Below, piece after piece: positions 16,009 through 28,896 of a DNA stretch of 51,425 bases. The translations under genes and the position numbers were made by a program. The stretch is from Candidatus Falkowiibacteriota bacterium (lineage in GTDB: Bacteria; Patescibacteriota; Patescibacteriia; Patescibacteriales; UBA12465): the NCBI GenBank assembly GCA_003554785.1, contig PWHG01000067.1, forward strand, positions 1 through 51,425. Reading direction: 5' to 3'. Numbering within the stretch: position 1 is the first letter of the stretch; each line of letters opens with the position of its first letter. The notes below the pieces were generated by a model. That model was given only the letters and a program-made list of their open reading frames with translations. It was not told the origin of the DNA and searched no databases.

Positions 16009-17097
16009 ATGAAAAGACTAGTAGTAGTACTAATTGTCTTTGTCCTGGGATTATTTGGCATTAAGATGCATGAGTCAAAAGATTTAAAAAAAATTGAAGA
16101 ATCTTTTTTCTCAGCTAATCATACTGCCAGGTATTGGACAAGTCCAATTATCAGACCAGAAAATGTAGAAAATTTAGCTAAAACTGATTTGTTAATTGTT
16201 GATGTAGAAAATATGTTCAACAATTATAATCATTTAGTGGAAATCAAGAAAAAAAATCCAGACTTGAAATTGATTTGCTACACCAATCCGATGGAGATTT
16301 GGACGACTAAATACGATAATCGTCCTTGGCAAAACTCAGTGATTGATGAAATTGTAAATAACAGACCAGAATGGATATTGCGGCAAACAATTTACAATGA
16401 AAGGTCACTAGTAACATTTTGGCCTGGAATGACAATGTTAAACCTTTCAACGGCTTGTCCAAGAGAAGGTTGGAGACGATATTATTCCTGGATGGCTAGA
16501 AAGCTAAATCGCGAAGTTTTATCTGACACGATTTGGGATGGTTATTTCATGGATAATTGTACTCCCAATATTTCTTGGGTATCACCAGGAAATATTGACA
16601 TAAACAATGATGGTCAACCCAACTTGGATCAAAGAATTGACCAGAGTTGGGAAAGAGGTGTTAGACGATTCTTGCGTCGAATTCGCCGAAGCAATAATGA
16701 TGATTTCATTATTATTGGCAACAAAGGTGATCATTATTATCTAGACATTGTGGATGGAAAAATGTTTGAAAATTTTCCCAATGCTTGGCTTGGTGATGAG
16801 TGGGCTGAGGGATTTGAACAATCAATTGAAAATGCCAAAAAAACCGGAGCCTATACCATTTTTAGTATAAACTCAGGAGAAGTAGAATTTGGTCTAGCTA
16901 GTGCCTTGCTTCTAGATAATGTTTATCTAGCGATAGGACAGGATGATGATCAAATTTATCAAGAGTTTATGATTGATCTTGGTAAGCCACTTGGACCTTA
17001 TTACAGAGAAGGGGATAAATATATTCGCCACTTTGAAAAGGGAAAAGTAGTAGTATCCCCACTACAAAGAAAAGGGGAAATAAGGGCTACAGTTTAG
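16009..17097 (+). CDS. Putative glycoside hydrolase (GHL15-like), secreted/membrane-anchored
   Basis: LLIVDVEN, FWPGMTMLNLS, WDGYFMDN, MFENFPNAW; parallel motifs in the 37290-39305 product. Confidence 0.65.
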   Translation: MKRLVVVLIVFVLGLFGIKMHESKDLKKIEESFFSANHTARYWTSPIIRPENVENLAKTDLLIVDVENMFNNYNHLVEIKKKNPDLKLICYTNPMEIWTTKYDNRPWQNSVIDEIVNNRPEWILRQTIYNERSLVTFWPGMTMLNLSTACPREGWRRYYSWMARKLNREVLSDTIWDGYFMDNCTPNISWVSPGNIDINNDGQPNLDQRIDQSWERGVRRFLRRIRRSNNDDFIIIGNKGDHYYLDIVDGKMFENFPNAWLGDEWAEGFEQSIENAKKTGAYTIFSINSGEVEFGLASALLLDNVYLAIGQDDDQIYQEFMIDLGKPLGPYYREGDKYIRHFEKGKVVVSPLQRKGEIRATV

Positions 17098-17137: not shown

Positions 17138-18433
17138 ATGTTAGAAATTTTAATTTTACTTACAATTTTAATTTTTGTTTTATTTACCATCTTACCTAAA
17201 ATCGGTTTATATATTTTAGCTTTATCATTGCCACTTATTGGTATTGAGTTAAGTTTGTATAATTTAAGTATACCGATCGTTGATTTAATTGCTGTAACTT
17301 TGCTTTTAGCTTTTTTTCTTAATTATCTAATAAGTTTAGTTTCTAAAAATAAAGTCAATAAATTATCTTGGCCCTTTTTAGTGCCATTTGCTATTTTTTT
17401 GTTAATTAGTTTTTTATCAGTTATTTTTTCTGGTAACTTTAGCGATTCACTTTATTACTTTCTTCGCTGGTTAGTCTTTCTTTATTTAGCCTACATTGTA
17501 GTGCCGGCAAATATTATTAAAAATCCAAAAATATTGAAAACTACTATTGTAATGGTGTTTATTAGCTCACTTGTAGTTTTGTTTGGTGGCTTTTTATCTC
17601 TTTATGGTCAAGATATCTATGATAGTTTCTTTCGTTTGCAAGGTATAAACATATCTGGTTTTTTTCCATTTGGCAGAAATCATAATTTAATTGCAGAGTT
17701 TTTAAATATTGGCGTTTTTCTTACTTTAATTATTAGGGAATTTTTAAAAAGTCAACGTGAGAAAAATTTAGCTGATGTTTTATTTGTTTTATTTACTTTT
17801 GGAATTATATTAACTTTTTCCCGAGCCGCTTGGATTACTTTAATTTTACAATTAATTGTTTATTTAGGCTTTAAGGCTTACTACAAAAAAAGAGAAAGAA
17901 TTCCAATTGTCTTAATTAGTCTTTTATTTCTAATTATCATCTCACCACTTTTTTTCCGCATGGAAAGACTCCAAGATGCCAATATTGGCTCAACTCAGAG
18001 TCGAGTGCTTTTAAACAATGTAGCAATTAATGCAGTTAAGGAGAAACCAATACTAGGTCATGGGAGTGGGGAATTTATAAATTTAGTTGATAAAGATATT
18101 CGTTTCAGGGCTCAGCATGGAGAAGCAATTGATGCCCATGGTGTACTTGCTAAAGTTTTAGCAGAAAGTGGAATATTTGGTTTAGTTGCCTGGCTCTTTA
18201 TTGTCTTATATTTATTTAAAATTACAGTGCTAGCAATAAAAAGATATTACCCTAAAATCTCTTGGATACTTCCACTTTGCCTGGCTGTTTGGGGCGGCTT
18301 GTTTTTTCAACTATTTAACACCTCGTACTTTAAAGGAAAAGTCTGGCTTCCAATACTACTTCTATTTTTAGCTATTAAATTTTTAGACGAGAAATATGTC
18401 AAAAAAAATAAAAATACTACATATATTACCTAA
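17138..18433 (+). CDS. O-antigen ligase/polymerase (Wzy/WaaL-like) multi-pass membrane protein
   Basis: TFSRAAWITL; KPILGHGSGEFI; DAHGVLAKVLAESGIFGLVAWL. Confidence 0.82.
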   Translation: MLEILILLTILIFVLFTILPKIGLYILALSLPLIGIELSLYNLSIPIVDLIAVTLLLAFFLNYLISLVSKNKVNKLSWPFLVPFAIFLLISFLSVIFSGNFSDSLYYFLRWLVFLYLAYIVVPANIIKNPKILKTTIVMVFISSLVVLFGGFLSLYGQDIYDSFFRLQGINISGFFPFGRNHNLIAEFLNIGVFLTLIIREFLKSQREKNLADVLFVLFTFGIILTFSRAAWITLILQLIVYLGFKAYYKKRERIPIVLISLLFLIIISPLFFRMERLQDANIGSTQSRVLLNNVAINAVKEKPILGHGSGEFINLVDKDIRFRAQHGEAIDAHGVLAKVLAESGIFGLVAWLFIVLYLFKITVLAIKRYYPKISWILPLCLAVWGGLFFQLFNTSYFKGKVWLPILLLFLAIKFLDEKYVKKNKNTTYIT

Positions 18434-22141: not shown

Positions 22142-22927
22142 ATGGAATTTAATCAATTTTCGCAATTAGTAAACCGAAAAAAACAGACAATCGTTAGTAT
22201 TATGCTAATAAGTTTAGTTTTAGTATTAGTTGCATCTATTCTTTCTCCTATAAAATATGGAGCTCAATCAAGAATTTTAGTTATGCAAGAGGGGGTAACT
22301 TCTGATGCTTATACTCTATCAAGAACTAATGAATATTTAGGAAACTTATTTTCTCAAATAATTTATTCAAGTTCATTTTTTGATTTAGTAATGGACAATG
22401 ATAATTATCAAATTGATAATAATTATTTCAGTGGTCAACAAACAGAAAGAATTAAAAAATGGAGAAATTCAATTAATACACGTACATATAGTGACAGTGG
22501 AATTATTGAAATTAATGTTTATCACCAACAACCACAACAAGCACAACAAATTGCTTTATCGATTAATAGCACCTTAACTAGTTATAGTCATAAGTATTCT
22601 GGTAATGAAAATATTAAAATTAATGTTATTGATCAACCACTAGTATCAGAGAGGCCAGTTAAACCAAACATACCCTATATTATCGCAATTACTATCTTAG
22701 GATCATTTATTTTAGCTTTAATCTTTATCTACATTTTTCCTGAAGAAAAATATGATATTAGATTATTTACAGCTAAAGCAAAAAAAAGCAAAAAAAATAT
22801 TGATCAAATAATAGAAGAAGAGGAAGAAGAAAGTGAAGAAGCAAAAAGATTAAATGAATATTATAGAAACTTGGAAAAAAATCGAGAAGATGATGTGTCA
22901 GGTGATATGGACAATATCATCAAATAA
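22142..22927 (+). CDS. Wzz/chain-length-determinant-like protein
   Basis: Two TMs flanking an extracytoplasmic domain; VSERPVKPNIPYIIAITILGSFILALIFIYIFPE. Confidence 0.75.
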   Translation: MEFNQFSQLVNRKKQTIVSIMLISLVLVLVASILSPIKYGAQSRILVMQEGVTSDAYTLSRTNEYLGNLFSQIIYSSSFFDLVMDNDNYQIDNNYFSGQQTERIKKWRNSINTRTYSDSGIIEINVYHQQPQQAQQIALSINSTLTSYSHKYSGNENIKINVIDQPLVSERPVKPNIPYIIAITILGSFILALIFIYIFPEEKYDIRLFTAKAKKSKKNIDQIIEEEEEESEEAKRLNEYYRNLEKNREDDVSGDMDNIIK

Positions 22928-22930
22928 TCC

Positions 22931-22959
22931 TTGACAAAAATCCAGTTTTAATATATATT
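22931..22959 (+). promoter_or_regulatory. Sigma70-like promoter of the first island gene
   Basis: TTGACA-17-TATATT. Confidence 0.65.
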
Positions 22960-23016: not shown

Positions 23017-23487
23017 ATGAAAAAAGTAGAAAAAGATTATGTAATTTATGGACTTGTTTTTTTGTTTCTTCTTTTGCTGGTTTACATGCTAGCAACCAGA
23101 AGTGATAAAAGTTCAGCAGAACACACTATTGATGAAAGGGTTGAAATCAAAGAACAACCCAGAGCAAAAGCTACACCGCAAGGTACCACAACCTTCTGTT
23201 TTCGGCTCAACGGTAGGGAAGACATGCATTTACCAGCACTCCTGGGAGGCGCTGGAAATGACGTCTATCCAAACGGACTTTCCGGGTTTAACTGGTCATT
23301 GACACCAACTTCAAGTGGCGATGAACCTTATGGAATCCTAGATGACGGGACTATCTTTGTAAAAAAAGAGTTCCTTTCAAAATGGGACCCGAATAAGGTT
23401 GAAATTAAGTCCGACCTCACTGGCTGGAGCCCTGTTCAAATGCGAGAAGAAGAAGTAAACGGAGAGCCGGCTTACGTGTATAAATAA
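23017..23487 (+). CDS. Membrane-anchored protein with unrecognised C-terminal domain (paralogue A)
   Basis: AGGAGG at 23001-23006; N-term TM YVIYGLVFLFLLLLVYMLA; C-term FCFRLNGREDMHLP...YGILDDGTIFV...IKSDLTGWSPVQM...YVYK. Confidence 0.8.
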   Translation: MKKVEKDYVIYGLVFLFLLLLVYMLATRSDKSSAEHTIDERVEIKEQPRAKATPQGTTTFCFRLNGREDMHLPALLGGAGNDVYPNGLSGFNWSLTPTSSGDEPYGILDDGTIFVKKEFLSKWDPNKVEIKSDLTGWSPVQMREEEVNGEPAYVYK

Positions 23488-23502
23488 GCCAAACCTCCAA
23501 TT

Positions 23503-23533
23503 GCCTCAGTTGTAAAAAACTGAGGCTTTTTTT
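23503..23533 (+). terminator. Terminator after paralogue A
   Basis: GCCTCAGT...ACTGAGGC + T7. Confidence 0.85.
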
Positions 23534-23543
23534 ATATTTTCTC

Positions 23544-23572
23544 TTGACATAAACAAAAAAATTATGTACAAT
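23544..23572 (+). promoter_or_regulatory. Sigma70-like promoter for the beta-barrel gene
   Basis: TTGACA-17-TACAAT. Confidence 0.7.
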
Positions 23573-23631
23573 AATATGATTATTTAAAAAAATAATTTAT
23601 TGAACATTAACAACAAAAAAAATATACAGTC

Positions 23632-24501
23632 ATGAAAAAATTTGTAATTTTTATCATTCTGTTTTTGGGTTTTATTTACTCAAGCTCAGGACAATTCAAA
23701 GAAGAGGTAAATGTTTCACTCTTTGCTGGTGGTTATTTTGCTCAGCAAAACACTAACAATCAAGGAGGTTGGTACGGCATTTATGCCGAATACTTACCTT
23801 TTAAAACTTCAGACCATGTATCTTTTGGTTTTTCCTTTCTTTATTCAAAGTCTAGGTTTGAAAATAATACTCAAACCTACAGGTATGAAGGAAGTAGCAG
23901 TCAAATTGGTGCAGGTATTACTGTAGGGAAATACTGGGATTTTTTCTCTCTGCGACATTCAGCTTTTTTAGGCACAAATATTATGCTTAAAAAAACTGAA
24001 GATCAAGGAAGAGGGGATGGTCACAATGGATCTGTTTATGAAATGACTCAAGAGGACTATATAGTTTCTTTTGATCTCAATTTCAACCTTCTTAAAACAT
24101 ATGGGTATTCCCATAACATTTTTCCTAGAACCCAGTTTAAATTGGGTTGGCAAAAACCTTTAGCTTTCTATAAAGAAGACTATTGGAATGGGGATGAAAT
24201 TCCGGAATCAGTTATTTGGGATAAAGCTGGCTTTAGTTCTGAAATAAAACTTAGTCTTATTGAAGCTGGTCTGTTTGAAAACCTAAGACAATACAAGGTT
24301 TTTCTGGGATATCAATATTTCCGGGGAGACAGAAGTCATTGGTTAATTACAGGTCCTGAAATGTCTTTTTTGAAAATGGAAAAAGATGACTGGCTTAGTA
24401 TAAACCTGTTTGTTAAACAACGAATAGGAAATTTTGAGCCAAGCCTTAATGATACCCATTTTGGTGTCAATTTGGTATTTACTTTTACGAATTTAAATTA
24501 A
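23632..24501 (+). CDS. Candidate outer-membrane-type beta-barrel protein with signal peptide
   Basis: MKKFVIFIILFLGFIYSSSGQ signal; alternating amphipathic aromatic strands (VNVSLFAGGYFAQQ, HVSFGFSFLYSKSRF, THFGVNLVFTFTNLN). Confidence 0.65.
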   Translation: MKKFVIFIILFLGFIYSSSGQFKEEVNVSLFAGGYFAQQNTNNQGGWYGIYAEYLPFKTSDHVSFGFSFLYSKSRFENNTQTYRYEGSSSQIGAGITVGKYWDFFSLRHSAFLGTNIMLKKTEDQGRGDGHNGSVYEMTQEDYIVSFDLNFNLLKTYGYSHNIFPRTQFKLGWQKPLAFYKEDYWNGDEIPESVIWDKAGFSSEIKLSLIEAGLFENLRQYKVFLGYQYFRGDRSHWLITGPEMSFLKMEKDDWLSINLFVKQRIGNFEPSLNDTHFGVNLVFTFTNLN

Positions 24502-24532
24502 GAAATTGTATAAACAAAAAGGAGGATTAATC

Positions 24533-25198
24533 ATGAAAAAACAAGTATTTTGGATTGCACTGATTATATTAATTGGTGCCATACTTTTCCTGTTTTATTT
24601 CAACTTCTGTTCAACAGACAGAGTTGAGGTGGAAACAAGAGAAGTTCACACAGAAATCAGAGAAGCTGATTATCAGAGATTAAGGGACAGAATTGTAAGT
24701 CTGGAAAGAAAACTACTTGAGCTGGAAAATAAAATTAACCAGCACACAAGCGCTAAAACAACGACCACTAGGTCGGTGACTCAAGCTAAACCTGCACCCA
24801 CTCCTGAGCCTAGGCCGGAACCAAAGACAGTAAGGGCTGATGATAAAAAAGCAGACCTGAGTCATTTACGTAACGTAAGTGGCGACATCATCTTCTGTGT
24901 TATGGCAAATAATGATGGTGGAATGCATTTTCCCCAATATGCCCTGGAAAGAGGAGCAACTTTTGAAGGAAACGTTCGATCCAATACTACCAGCGATGGA
25001 AACAACTGGGTCGTGCACCCAACAGAAACCATGCGTGGAGATTATGGAATCACTCATGATGGCACATTTTTTGTGTCTCATAGTGTAATTGATTCCCTAA
25101 TTGACGTCCATAACCTTGCCATAAAGTCAGAATTTACTGGTTGGCAACCAAGAGACATGACAAGAGAAGGGAATTATTGGGTTTATAAAACCCGATGA
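24533..25198 (+). CDS. Membrane-anchored protein with coiled-coil stalk and the same C-terminal domain (paralogue B)
   Basis: AGGAGG at 24520-24525; TM FWIALIILIGAILFLFYF; coiled coil RLRDRIVSLERKLLELENKI; C-term IIFCVMANNDGGMHFP...YGITHDGTFFV...IKSEFTGWQPRDM...WVYK; TGA stop. Confidence 0.8.
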   Translation: MKKQVFWIALIILIGAILFLFYFNFCSTDRVEVETREVHTEIREADYQRLRDRIVSLERKLLELENKINQHTSAKTTTTRSVTQAKPAPTPEPRPEPKTVRADDKKADLSHLRNVSGDIIFCVMANNDGGMHFPQYALERGATFEGNVRSNTTSDGNNWVVHPTETMRGDYGITHDGTFFVSHSVIDSLIDVHNLAIKSEFTGWQPRDMTREGNYWVYKTR

Positions 25199-25214
25199 TC
25201 CTTCAAAAAATACA

Positions 25215-25247
25215 CCCTCAGATTAAATTAAAATCTGAGGGTTTTTT
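25215..25247 (+). terminator. Terminator after paralogue B
   Basis: CCCTCAGATT...AATCTGAGGG + T6. Confidence 0.85.
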
Positions 25248-25300: not shown

Positions 25301-26434
25301 CTAACTTATAATTTGTAAAAAAATATATTGATAATAATCATCCCAGAAAATTGACTGGGACATATTATTATTTTCCTGATCTTCATATAAACCCCAGACC
25401 ATTCTTACGGGGAAATCTTCTATATCGGAGATATGAAGCTTTCCCCAGTTAGGAAAATTTGGAACCGAACTTAAGGGTATTGGTGAATGCCACTGCTCAT
25501 TGTGGTCAAGATATGACCACCAGGGATCACCTTGACTAAATGAGCCATCAAGATTTACATAAACTGTAACTGAATTGTCGTTGTTTATTGTAAACCTCAA
25601 GGCTGCTGATGGTCCCTGATCACCATTTTCACCGGGAATTGGCACAACTGGAATAATTTCTCCATCATCTTTTAGATGAAAAGAAATAAGGGTTGGTTCA
25701 TCAACAGTCACAAAATTACTGTTTTTGAAGTTTCCCCATATTGGATCATCACCAACAAACCTCACCACTCCAAAAGAGTGATCACCGGGCGCTATTTCAA
25801 TTTGAGTTTTAACCCAATGACCAACGCCTTCTGCGGGATGAAGTTCACCATTAGAAGACATTCGATAATTGGTATCAGCCGGATTTATCATTTGGTGATT
25901 ATCCCAGGGAATATCTGTAATTGTGCCATACAGATAATAGTTTCCTGATACTCCATGCCAGGCATTTTTGTAGATACCGGCAGTAATCTTAAATTTATCA
26001 CCACTTTCCTCTACATCAGTGATGTAAAACGGTGATTCAGGGTATCTAGGAAATAAATTTAAATAGGAGGTAACTTGATGTTCTTCTCCATTTAAACCTA
26101 CTATAGTTAATGATATTGACTTCATATCATAACCGCCATAGAAATAAATGGGATTATCATCAAAGCTTTCCTCCTCATTCCAAAATTCCCATATAACATA
26201 ATCTACAGACATATCAGTTTCATAACTAAATATGAACTGTTTGTTAGATTCAACCATGAAGATGGTTTCACCAGCTTCGGTTGTTGTGGTTTCAATTTCC
26301 TGACCTTCTTCAAGTGTAGCCACTTTAATTGCAACTTCACCATCACCAGGATCAAGATCGGGATCCATGTAATCTACCTTTTCGCAGGCAGAAAAAATGA
26401 AAAAGAAAAGAAAAATACTCAGAATTTTTTTCAT
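25301..26434 (-). CDS. Secreted lipoprotein of unknown function, Bacteroidetes-like style
   Basis: MKKILSIFLFFFIFSAC lipobox followed by acidic EKVDYMDPDLDPGDGE. Confidence 0.7.
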   Translation of the reverse strand: MKKILSIFLFFFIFSACEKVDYMDPDLDPGDGEVAIKVATLEEGQEIETTTTEAGETIFMVESNKQFIFSYETDMSVDYVIWEFWNEEESFDDNPIYFYGGYDMKSISLTIVGLNGEEHQVTSYLNLFPRYPESPFYITDVEESGDKFKITAGIYKNAWHGVSGNYYLYGTITDIPWDNHQMINPADTNYRMSSNGELHPAEGVGHWVKTQIEIAPGDHSFGVVRFVGDDPIWGNFKNSNFVTVDEPTLISFHLKDDGEIIPVVPIPGENGDQGPSAALRFTINNDNSVTVYVNLDGSFSQGDPWWSYLDHNEQWHSPIPLSSVPNFPNWGKLHISDIEDFPVRMVWGLYEDQENNNMSQSIFWDDYYQYIFLQIIS

Positions 26435-27687: not shown

Positions 27688-28896
27688 ATGATTAAAATAT
27701 TAGGTATAAAATTAGCAAGTATTGATAAACACAGTTTATTGAAAAAATTAGAAAAGATTCTAGAAAGAGAGAAAAAAATATACATTTGCACTCCAAATCC
27801 AGAAATAATTCTTAAATCTCATCAAGATGAGGAGCTATTTTATATTTTAAACCAAGCTGAATACAATTTAGCAGATGGTTTTGGTTTGCAAATTGCTGGT
27901 CGTTTAAGCAATCAAAGTTTTCCTCGAATTACTGGTGCTGATTTTAGTCTTGAACTTTTAAAATTAGCAGAAAAACAAGAAAAAAAAGTAATAATTGTAA
28001 ATCATAAAAATGGTCGCTCAAGTATCAGTGATATTGAGAAAGCTTTAAAAAAATTAGTACCCAATCTAAATTTTTTAGTTATTAATTCTGATGTTAAAAT
28101 TAATCTTGACAAAAACTCTGAAAAACAAATTGAAGAATATTCAGCTGATATTTTATTCTCTCTATTTGGCGCCCCTTGGCAAGAAAAGTTTATTTACCAT
28201 AACTTAAATAAATTTACTAATCTAAAAATTGCCATTGGCGTGGGCGGAGCTTTTGATTTTTTAACTAAAAAAGCCAAACGAGCTTCAAAGTTAATCAGAA
28301 AAATTGGTCTGGAATGGTTGTGGCGATTAATACTTGAACCCAAGAGATTTAAAAGAATATTTAATGCCACAATTTTATTTATGGCTAAAGTAATTAATTG
28401 GCGCTTTATTCTCCCTCTTAAATATCGAAAAAATGTGGCTTGTTTGCTATATAGATTTAAAAACAAGGAAAAGGAAATACTGCTAGTTAAAAGAAGTGAT
28501 CAAAAAAATCATTGGCAAGTTCCTCAAGGTGGTCTTGATGGTCAAAAAATTATTGAGGCCGGAAAAAGGGAACTAAGAGAAGAGGTTGGTACCAGCAATT
28601 TTACTGTTGAAAAAGTTTTTAAAAATGTATTTAAATATAAATTTAGAGATAATTTTTCTTCTGATAAAGAGAAAAATAAACATTATGATAAATTTGGCTA
28701 CAAGGGCCAAAAACAAAATTTATTAATCGCTCGCTTTACTGGCAGTGATGAGGATATAAACATTAATTTTTGGGACCACACAAATTGGAAGTGGGTAAAG
28801 AAATCAGAGGTACTAAAGATTGTTCACCCAGTTAGAAGAAATGCTACTAAAAAATTTTTAGAAAAATTAAATAAATTAAAATATGAAAAAAATTAG
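27688..28896 (+). CDS. WecG/TagA/CpsF-family glycosyltransferase fused to a C-terminal Nudix domain
   Basis: CTPNPEIILKSHQDEELFYILNQAEYNLADGFGLQIAGR (GT26); WQVPQGGLDGQKIIEAGKRELREEVGT (Nudix box). Confidence 0.85.
   Translation: MIKILGIKLASIDKHSLLKKLEKILEREKKIYICTPNPEIILKSHQDEELFYILNQAEYNLADGFGLQIAGRLSNQSFPRITGADFSLELLKLAEKQEKKVIIVNHKNGRSSISDIEKALKKLVPNLNFLVINSDVKINLDKNSEKQIEEYSADILFSLFGAPWQEKFIYHNLNKFTNLKIAIGVGGAFDFLTKKAKRASKLIRKIGLEWLWRLILEPKRFKRIFNATILFMAKVINWRFILPLKYRKNVACLLYRFKNKEKEILLVKRSDQKNHWQVPQGGLDGQKIIEAGKRELREEVGTSNFTVEKVFKNVFKYKFRDNFSSDKEKNKHYDKFGYKGQKQNLLIARFTGSDEDININFWDHTNWKWVKKSEVLKIVHPVRRNATKKFLEKLNKLKYEKN

Follow-up and report, generated by a model that had tools for sequence, protein, structure and literature searches.

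A circularly permuted domain in two membrane-anchored proteins beside a β-barrel gene of Patescibacteria without BamA

What is the domain that two membrane-anchored proteins share on either side of a β-barrel gene, and what does the arrangement do in an ultrasmall Patescibacterium? The question is raised by contig PWHG01000067.1 of Candidatus Falkowiibacteriota bacterium (assembly GCA_003554785.1), which was analysed over its whole length of 51,425 nucleotides (the window) and is part of a 911 kb genome in 86 contigs. An earlier note on this DNA had drawn attention to the pair, here called proteins A and B, but it missed both the circular permutation of their common domain and the fact that the barrel is found in genomes without BamA.

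Two anchored proteins share a C-terminal domain

The C-terminal domains of A and B match at 39% over 96 aa (BLASTP, E = 2e-14), and protein B, used as a query against its whole own genome, retrieved protein A at 5.7e-10. The Smith–Waterman score of the two C termini is 126, far above that of 2,000 shuffles (25.7 ± 4.5, maximum 60). The similarity described in the earlier note is therefore significant and both open reading frames (ORFs) are present on either side of the barrel gene, although the domain is nearer 105 residues than the roughly 95 aa first given. The N-terminal halves score 28 and have only the membrane anchor in common; the transmembrane (TM) anchor claimed for both proteins is seen in a mean hydropathy over 19 residues of 2.6 in A (2.59 at residue 9) and 2.9 in B. 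Homologues of B carry either a lipobox (TAC, VGC, SAC or SSC in several genomes) or, as in the window and others, a TM helix, so that the anchor type interchanges while the stalk–domain layout stays constant.

An AGGAGG ribosome-binding site precedes the ATG of protein B. Consensus matches around A, the barrel and B, listed as putative elements in Table 1, comprise two promoter-like sites, both with 17-base spacers, and two terminator-like hairpins. These predicted sites would split the block into two transcription units, one of A alone and one of the barrel together with B.

Table 1 Features of the window and of canonical-order proteins in related genomes (L108, L111 and L112 are loci of other families of the order)
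Feature	Position	Strand	Basis or remark
Exported glycoside hydrolase-like protein (GHL15), polysaccharide locus	16009..17097	+	PF14885 1.2e-19
Wzy/O-antigen-ligase-type membrane protein, polysaccharide locus	17138..18433	+	PF04932 2.4e-18
Wzz-like polysaccharide co-polymerase (TIGR01006-like), first gene of conserved block	22142..22927	+	NCBIfam, Pfam, relatives' loci
Promoter-like site for A (TTGACA-17-TATATT)	22931..22959	+	11/12 consensus matches
Protein A: N-terminal TM anchor, short linker, permuted domain	23017..23487	+	ORF, 156 aa
Permuted domain of A	23179..23484	+	Profile match 1.2e-38, alignment
Terminator-like hairpin after A	23503..23526	+	
Promoter-like site for barrel–B (TTGACA-17-TACAAT)	23544..23572	+	11/12 consensus matches
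Predicted 12-strand β-barrel protein with N-terminal signal sequence	23632..24501	+	AlphaFold2, Foldseek
Protein B: TM anchor, coiled coil, Pro/Ala/Thr-rich stalk, permuted domain	24533..25198	+	ORF, 221 aa
Permuted domain of B	24884..25195	+	Profile match 2.0e-37; AlphaFold2 pLDDT 94.4, pTM 0.86
Terminator-like hairpin after B, common to barrel and B	25214..25242	+	
Exported lipoprotein (lipobox FSAC), no Pfam family, kept near module	25301..26434	−	Sequence, equivalents in relatives
Canonical-order protein	L108 4783-5259 (G075)	−	Near Wzz gene
Canonical-order protein	L111 1777-2190	−	Near Wzz gene
Canonical-order protein	L112 4888-5346	+	Near Wzz gene
Canonical-order tandem protein (G075)	L108 11831-12901	−	Near Wzz gene

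The domain is circularly permuted

When the whole order was searched, one protein of genome G075 was matched twice by the A/B profile within a single frame, with profile positions 53–106 first and 2–47 after them. In other families of the order, proteins with this arrangement of halves, here termed canonical, are encoded close to the Wzz gene (Table 1). The native profile meets the canonical-order G075 protein as two swapped halves (28.0 + 18.9 bits). When the profile was rotated just before the YG..DGxFFVS strand, which is a sharp optimum among the cut points, the match to this protein rose from 28.0 to 55.6 bits and was aligned over 2–102; the same rotated profile raised the G105 match from 23.8 to 43.1 bits and brought the tandem protein of G075 from 27.1 to 39.1 bits.

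A second, independent set consisted of the proteins in the position of B in four genomes (G022, G017, G001 and G040), which have the same anchor, coiled coil and stalk, and to which those of G009 and G053 were later added. Rotation at column 60 aligned 97–99 columns with a probability of 67% for the four proteins and 86% for the six, compared with 7–13% and 14–60%, respectively, for cuts outside 54–66; cuts at 54 and 66 were intermediate, and the reversed profile gave 0.1%. Both orders therefore exist at the same gene position. Taken together, these profile comparisons show that the A/B domain is a circular permutation of one that related Patescibacteria carry on exported proteins.

The partner barrel gene records the event. 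In its tree, a 100/99 branch separates all 14 genomes with the permuted form from the six with the canonical form; the placement of G009 and G053, on long branches, is unsure, and the split does not rest on these two alone. Because the tree divides exactly by permutation state, a single permutation event is likely. The canonical order is also present in four other families of the order, and it is therefore most simply taken as ancestral, the permuted form having been derived once. The locus is a clear natural example of circular permutation: the two orders have both persisted, in sister lineages, at a single gene position.

The domain resembles carbohydrate-binding folds locally

The earlier note had been unable to place the domain in a family, and this judgement stands. 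Nothing credible came from Pfam or NCBIfam when A, B, their homologues and the rotated and consensus sequences were scanned, and PDB sequence searches with the domain, rotated order included, returned nothing significant. Against the CBM48/AMPK1_CBM profiles (PF02922/PF16561), canonical-order, rotated and consensus sequences had no match at E ≤ 10 and the native A/B domains none at E ≤ 0.5; because the family profile does not match, we do not file the domain in CBM48. Fold prediction followed by Foldseek, the check that had been suggested, yielded a confident, compact and mostly β model of the B domain (pLDDT 94.4) and no global or confident match in the PDB, by a comparison that depends on sequence order. 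Foldseek against viral models gave no match.

The recurrent partial Foldseek matches are AMPK glycogen-binding domains, which superpose locally over 41–43 residues at 1.7 Å with a probability of at most 0.38; they are many entries of one protein and are counted as one observation. In rotated order the domain runs in register with AMPK over 65 columns, with a weak hhalign score of 15.1 (shuffles 9.9 ± 1.9, maximum 13.8 in 60); a single-sequence hhalign of this kind is too weak for a claim of homology. AMPK contacts sugar through Trp100, Trp133 and Asn150 (PMC9788615). In the domain a W and an N are invariant and stand at or within one position of W100 and N150, respectively, and W133 is only partly matched, by F, Y, W or H near an invariant P. 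In its native form the A/B domain would differ in strand order from CBM48/AMPK. The domain is probably an Ig-like, CBM48/AMPK-type E-set fold with its halves exchanged. Because the resemblance found to CBM48/AMPK is only local, sugar binding is something that we infer: the domain may be a permuted E-set carbohydrate-binding domain.

A conserved barrel–B unit in a polysaccharide locus

A profile of the two sequences detected the A/B pair at the same spacing in three further family genomes and B alone in another two. The domain is present in 15 family genomes and the barrel gene in 30 of 39. The usual gene order is β-propeller (opposite strand), Wzz-like, (A), barrel, B, glycosyltransferase, lipoprotein, CorA-like protein and WecG, and the module adjoins the same glycosyltransferase genes across the family. 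The genomes are related, so that neither these counts nor those below are independent.

The check for co-occurrence with a barrel neighbour, which the earlier note had also proposed, showed that wherever the domain is present and the contig is intact, in 14 of 14 genomes, B lies immediately 3′ of the barrel (G048, with a rearranged contig, was left out). With the barrel in 30 of 39 genomes Fisher P is about 0.006, which is indicative only, as the genomes are not independent. B and the barrel are a two-gene unit, inherited together. Functional coupling, which had been suggested for all three proteins, is thus upheld for B, by this adjacency and by a barrel tree that splits with the domain order of B. 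The case for A is weaker: A lies 5′ of the barrel in only seven genomes (the window and six others) and in a separate predicted transcription unit. Stand-alone A-type proteins with no barrel nearby occur in G051 (L121 4174-4731, +) and G046 (L122 1426-1983, +), in a second conserved neighbourhood with PIN-domain and ABC-F-like genes, so the link between A and the barrel is not an obligate one.

The first gene of the block, Wzz-like, matches TIGR01006 at E = 1.3e-10 with 41 bits, below the curated cut-off of 296; its Pfam Wzz score is 17.6 against a cut-off of 25.5, and Pfam GNVR/Wzz is weak. The gene holds the same position in the loci of relatives. Two side observations concern the genes downstream. 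The sequence of the exported lipoprotein and of its equivalents in relatives suggests several Ig-like/CBM-like repeats, and positions 27688-28896 (+) of the window encode a WecG/TagA glycosyltransferase fused to a NUDIX domain, the NUDIX part being absent in some relatives.

Among 381 genomes sampled in the class, all matches of the domain and of the barrel fall within this order, and barrel relatives with named records belong to Candidatus Falkowbacteria and other Patescibacteria. Profiles were used to search Patescibacteria, single-sequence queries to search phages, plasmids and viral contigs, and exact peptide patterns to search Bacteroidota genomes. A phage origin was rejected, with no tblastn match in phages and no relative in viral contigs, as was a plasmid origin, with no match for the domain and one weak, irrelevant match for the barrel.

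An outer-membrane-type barrel in genomes without BamA

AlphaFold2 models the barrel protein with 12 strands (pLDDT 86.5, pTM 0.80) and a hydrophobic helix at residues 2–15 of the N terminus, and its best Foldseek match is the β-domain of the autotransporter Hbp (5.3e-9). The predicted closed, even-stranded antiparallel barrel, together with the signal sequence, would class the protein as an outer-membrane β-barrel; its inside/outside alternation is weak, with 83 of 2,000 shuffles as high. No genome of the order, out of 111 that include single-contig ones, had Omp85 (PF01103) or POTRA (PF07244) above cut-off, and seven control genomes were above it. Below the cut-off there are one Omp85 fragment, in G078 (18.8 bits), and two for POTRA, which are not evidence of BamA. 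For the nearest described relative, of a genus related to the host of the module, a single membrane together with murein was inferred (PMC11809585).

Other envelope-type proteins were seen in these genomes. Second, stand-alone barrel paralogues lie outside the polysaccharide locus in G021 (L123 6239-7084, +) and G003 (L115 5433-6314, +), where they adjoin unrelated housekeeping genes. Related barrels are found elsewhere in the order, at least one of them fused to LysM. LysM is carried by exported proteins beside Wzz (L109 5332-6840, +; L108 5238-6665, −), and the LysM protein of G098 also matches the barrel profile and is a LysM–barrel fusion (PF01476 1.1e-6). An MlaA/VacJ outer-membrane lipoprotein lies near the Wzz gene of the same genome (L109 150-1082, −; PF04333 5.7e-30). 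In this BamA-less order, 30 of the 111 genomes score above cut-off for T9SS-type C-terminal sorting tails (PF18962). The genome of the window is one of them (G000:C48:2123-2347 and C33:3013-3216), and a further tail is on the G075 tandem protein (L108 11831-12901, −). Exported DUF5018 proteins (PF16410), of what we take to be a Bacteroidota-type family, occupy the Wzz-adjacent slot in L108 7983-9728 (−) and L110 2954-4426 (+).

Discussion

With moderate confidence, we propose that the surface-polysaccharide locus has at its export end an attachment module made up of A, the barrel and B, in which B would reach from the cell membrane to the barrel or glycan layer. B would be held in the cytoplasmic membrane by its TM helix or a lipid, its coiled coil and Pro/Ala/Thr stalk would span the wall, and its domain would bind the polysaccharide of the locus, the inner face of the barrel or both; B would in this way tether cell, barrel and glycan layer. 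A, as a short stalkless version, may hold glycan near the membrane. Here we infer export, the anchoring topology, glycan binding and the docking of B to the barrel. In favour of the proposal are the carbohydrate context (Wzz-like, Wzy_C, glycosyltransferases and GHL15), the homology of A and B, the kept Wzz–(A)–barrel–B order, the permutation, the co-inheritance, the local match to AMPK and the conserved W and N. Against it are the lack of a significant sequence match to carbohydrate-binding modules, Foldseek probabilities of 0.38 or below, the weak AMPK hhalign, the partly matched W133 and the occurrence of A without a barrel; and, because the genomes have no BamA, the membrane of the barrel is left unexplained.

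The strict adjacency of B and the barrel, and a barrel tree that mirrors the domain order of B, would suit the main rival explanation, by which the domain is a protein–protein adaptor that docks on the barrel and binds no sugar, B being a wall-to-barrel tether like OmpA/Pal- or LysM-type linkers. The barrel-profile match beside Wzz that is fused to LysM in another family (G098), and so has a tether in the same chain, points the same way. A-type proteins with the same domain away from any barrel argue against an adaptor, however, as do the canonical-order relatives, which are small secreted proteins without a tether, and we consider this explanation possible but on the unlikely side. It is very unlikely, in our estimate, that the barrel, B and other Bacteroidota-like exports are inserted in or processed by the envelope of a host, with the host BAM. 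The absence of Omp85, BamA and POTRA above cut-off from the 111 genomes, with seven controls above it, would fit such an arrangement, as would the T9SS-type tails in 30 genomes, the MlaA in one genome and the single membrane inferred for the nearest described relative; but the membrane anchors of A and B should retain both proteins on the Patescibacterium, no host is known for these genomes, and a T9SS tail can be an Ig-like domain that was inherited and is used for something else.

The GC content of A and B (0.42 and 0.41, compared with 0.27–0.31 in the flanks) and the Bacteroidota-like signal peptides might suggest contamination or mis-binning, by which the barrel, B and the lipoprotein came from Bacteroidota and were joined to a contig of a Patescibacterium. 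The same block, however, is found in many independent assemblies with Patescibacterial genes on both sides, and it lies on a single-contig chromosome of about 1 Mb from Candidatus Falkowbacteria (G047, CP066698.1). This chromosome and the conserved synteny refute a mis-joined contig, to which we attach almost no probability.

Returning to the attachment module, its wider setting can be read more boldly. Only tentatively, and as something rather doubtful, we suggest that a presumed single-membrane order with outer-membrane-type barrels and tethers, and no BamA, has either an unrecognised outer lipid layer with its own barrel assembly or barrels placed in the outer membrane of a host, with a tether domain permuted in place. 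More generally, the conservation of a barrel–tether–Wzz module where BamA is lacking calls into question whether these Patescibacteria are plain monoderms, and in the barrel and B it supplies defined proteins for locating the outer surface of the cells and for studying how they hold on to a polysaccharide layer or a host.

Several known systems share parts of this arrangement. The barrel recalls the outer-membrane barrels of the autotransporter β-domains Hbp (3aeh) and EspP (2qom), and also PgaA (4y25) and AlgE, in its 12-strand model and Foldseek E value; it differs from them in its unrelated sequence, with an identity of about 10%, in having no passenger and in the lack of Omp85/BamA in its host genomes. 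The upstream gene resembles Wzz/CpsC-type co-polymerases in its TIGR01006 similarity and in hydrophobic segments near both ends. Known partners of Wzz are Wza, tyrosine kinases or AlgE/PgaA-type exporters, whereas the partner here is an anchored stalk protein with the permuted domain, of which we know no example among them. After rotation, the domain pattern V-x-gdfTgW...M...gxYyV / vxFCv..g....P / N..GyNfxV parallels the AMPK domain; CBM48/AMPK differs in that there is no significant sequence match and no global fold match, in the exchanged halves of A/B, and in phylum and export. Finally, MalS of E. coli is a known circular permutation in a carbohydrate enzyme (PMC10223318) and is alike in having a permuted order in a glycan-related protein, but MalS is a catalytic enzyme with its domains in permuted order, whereas in A and B the halves of one small, stand-alone domain have changed places.
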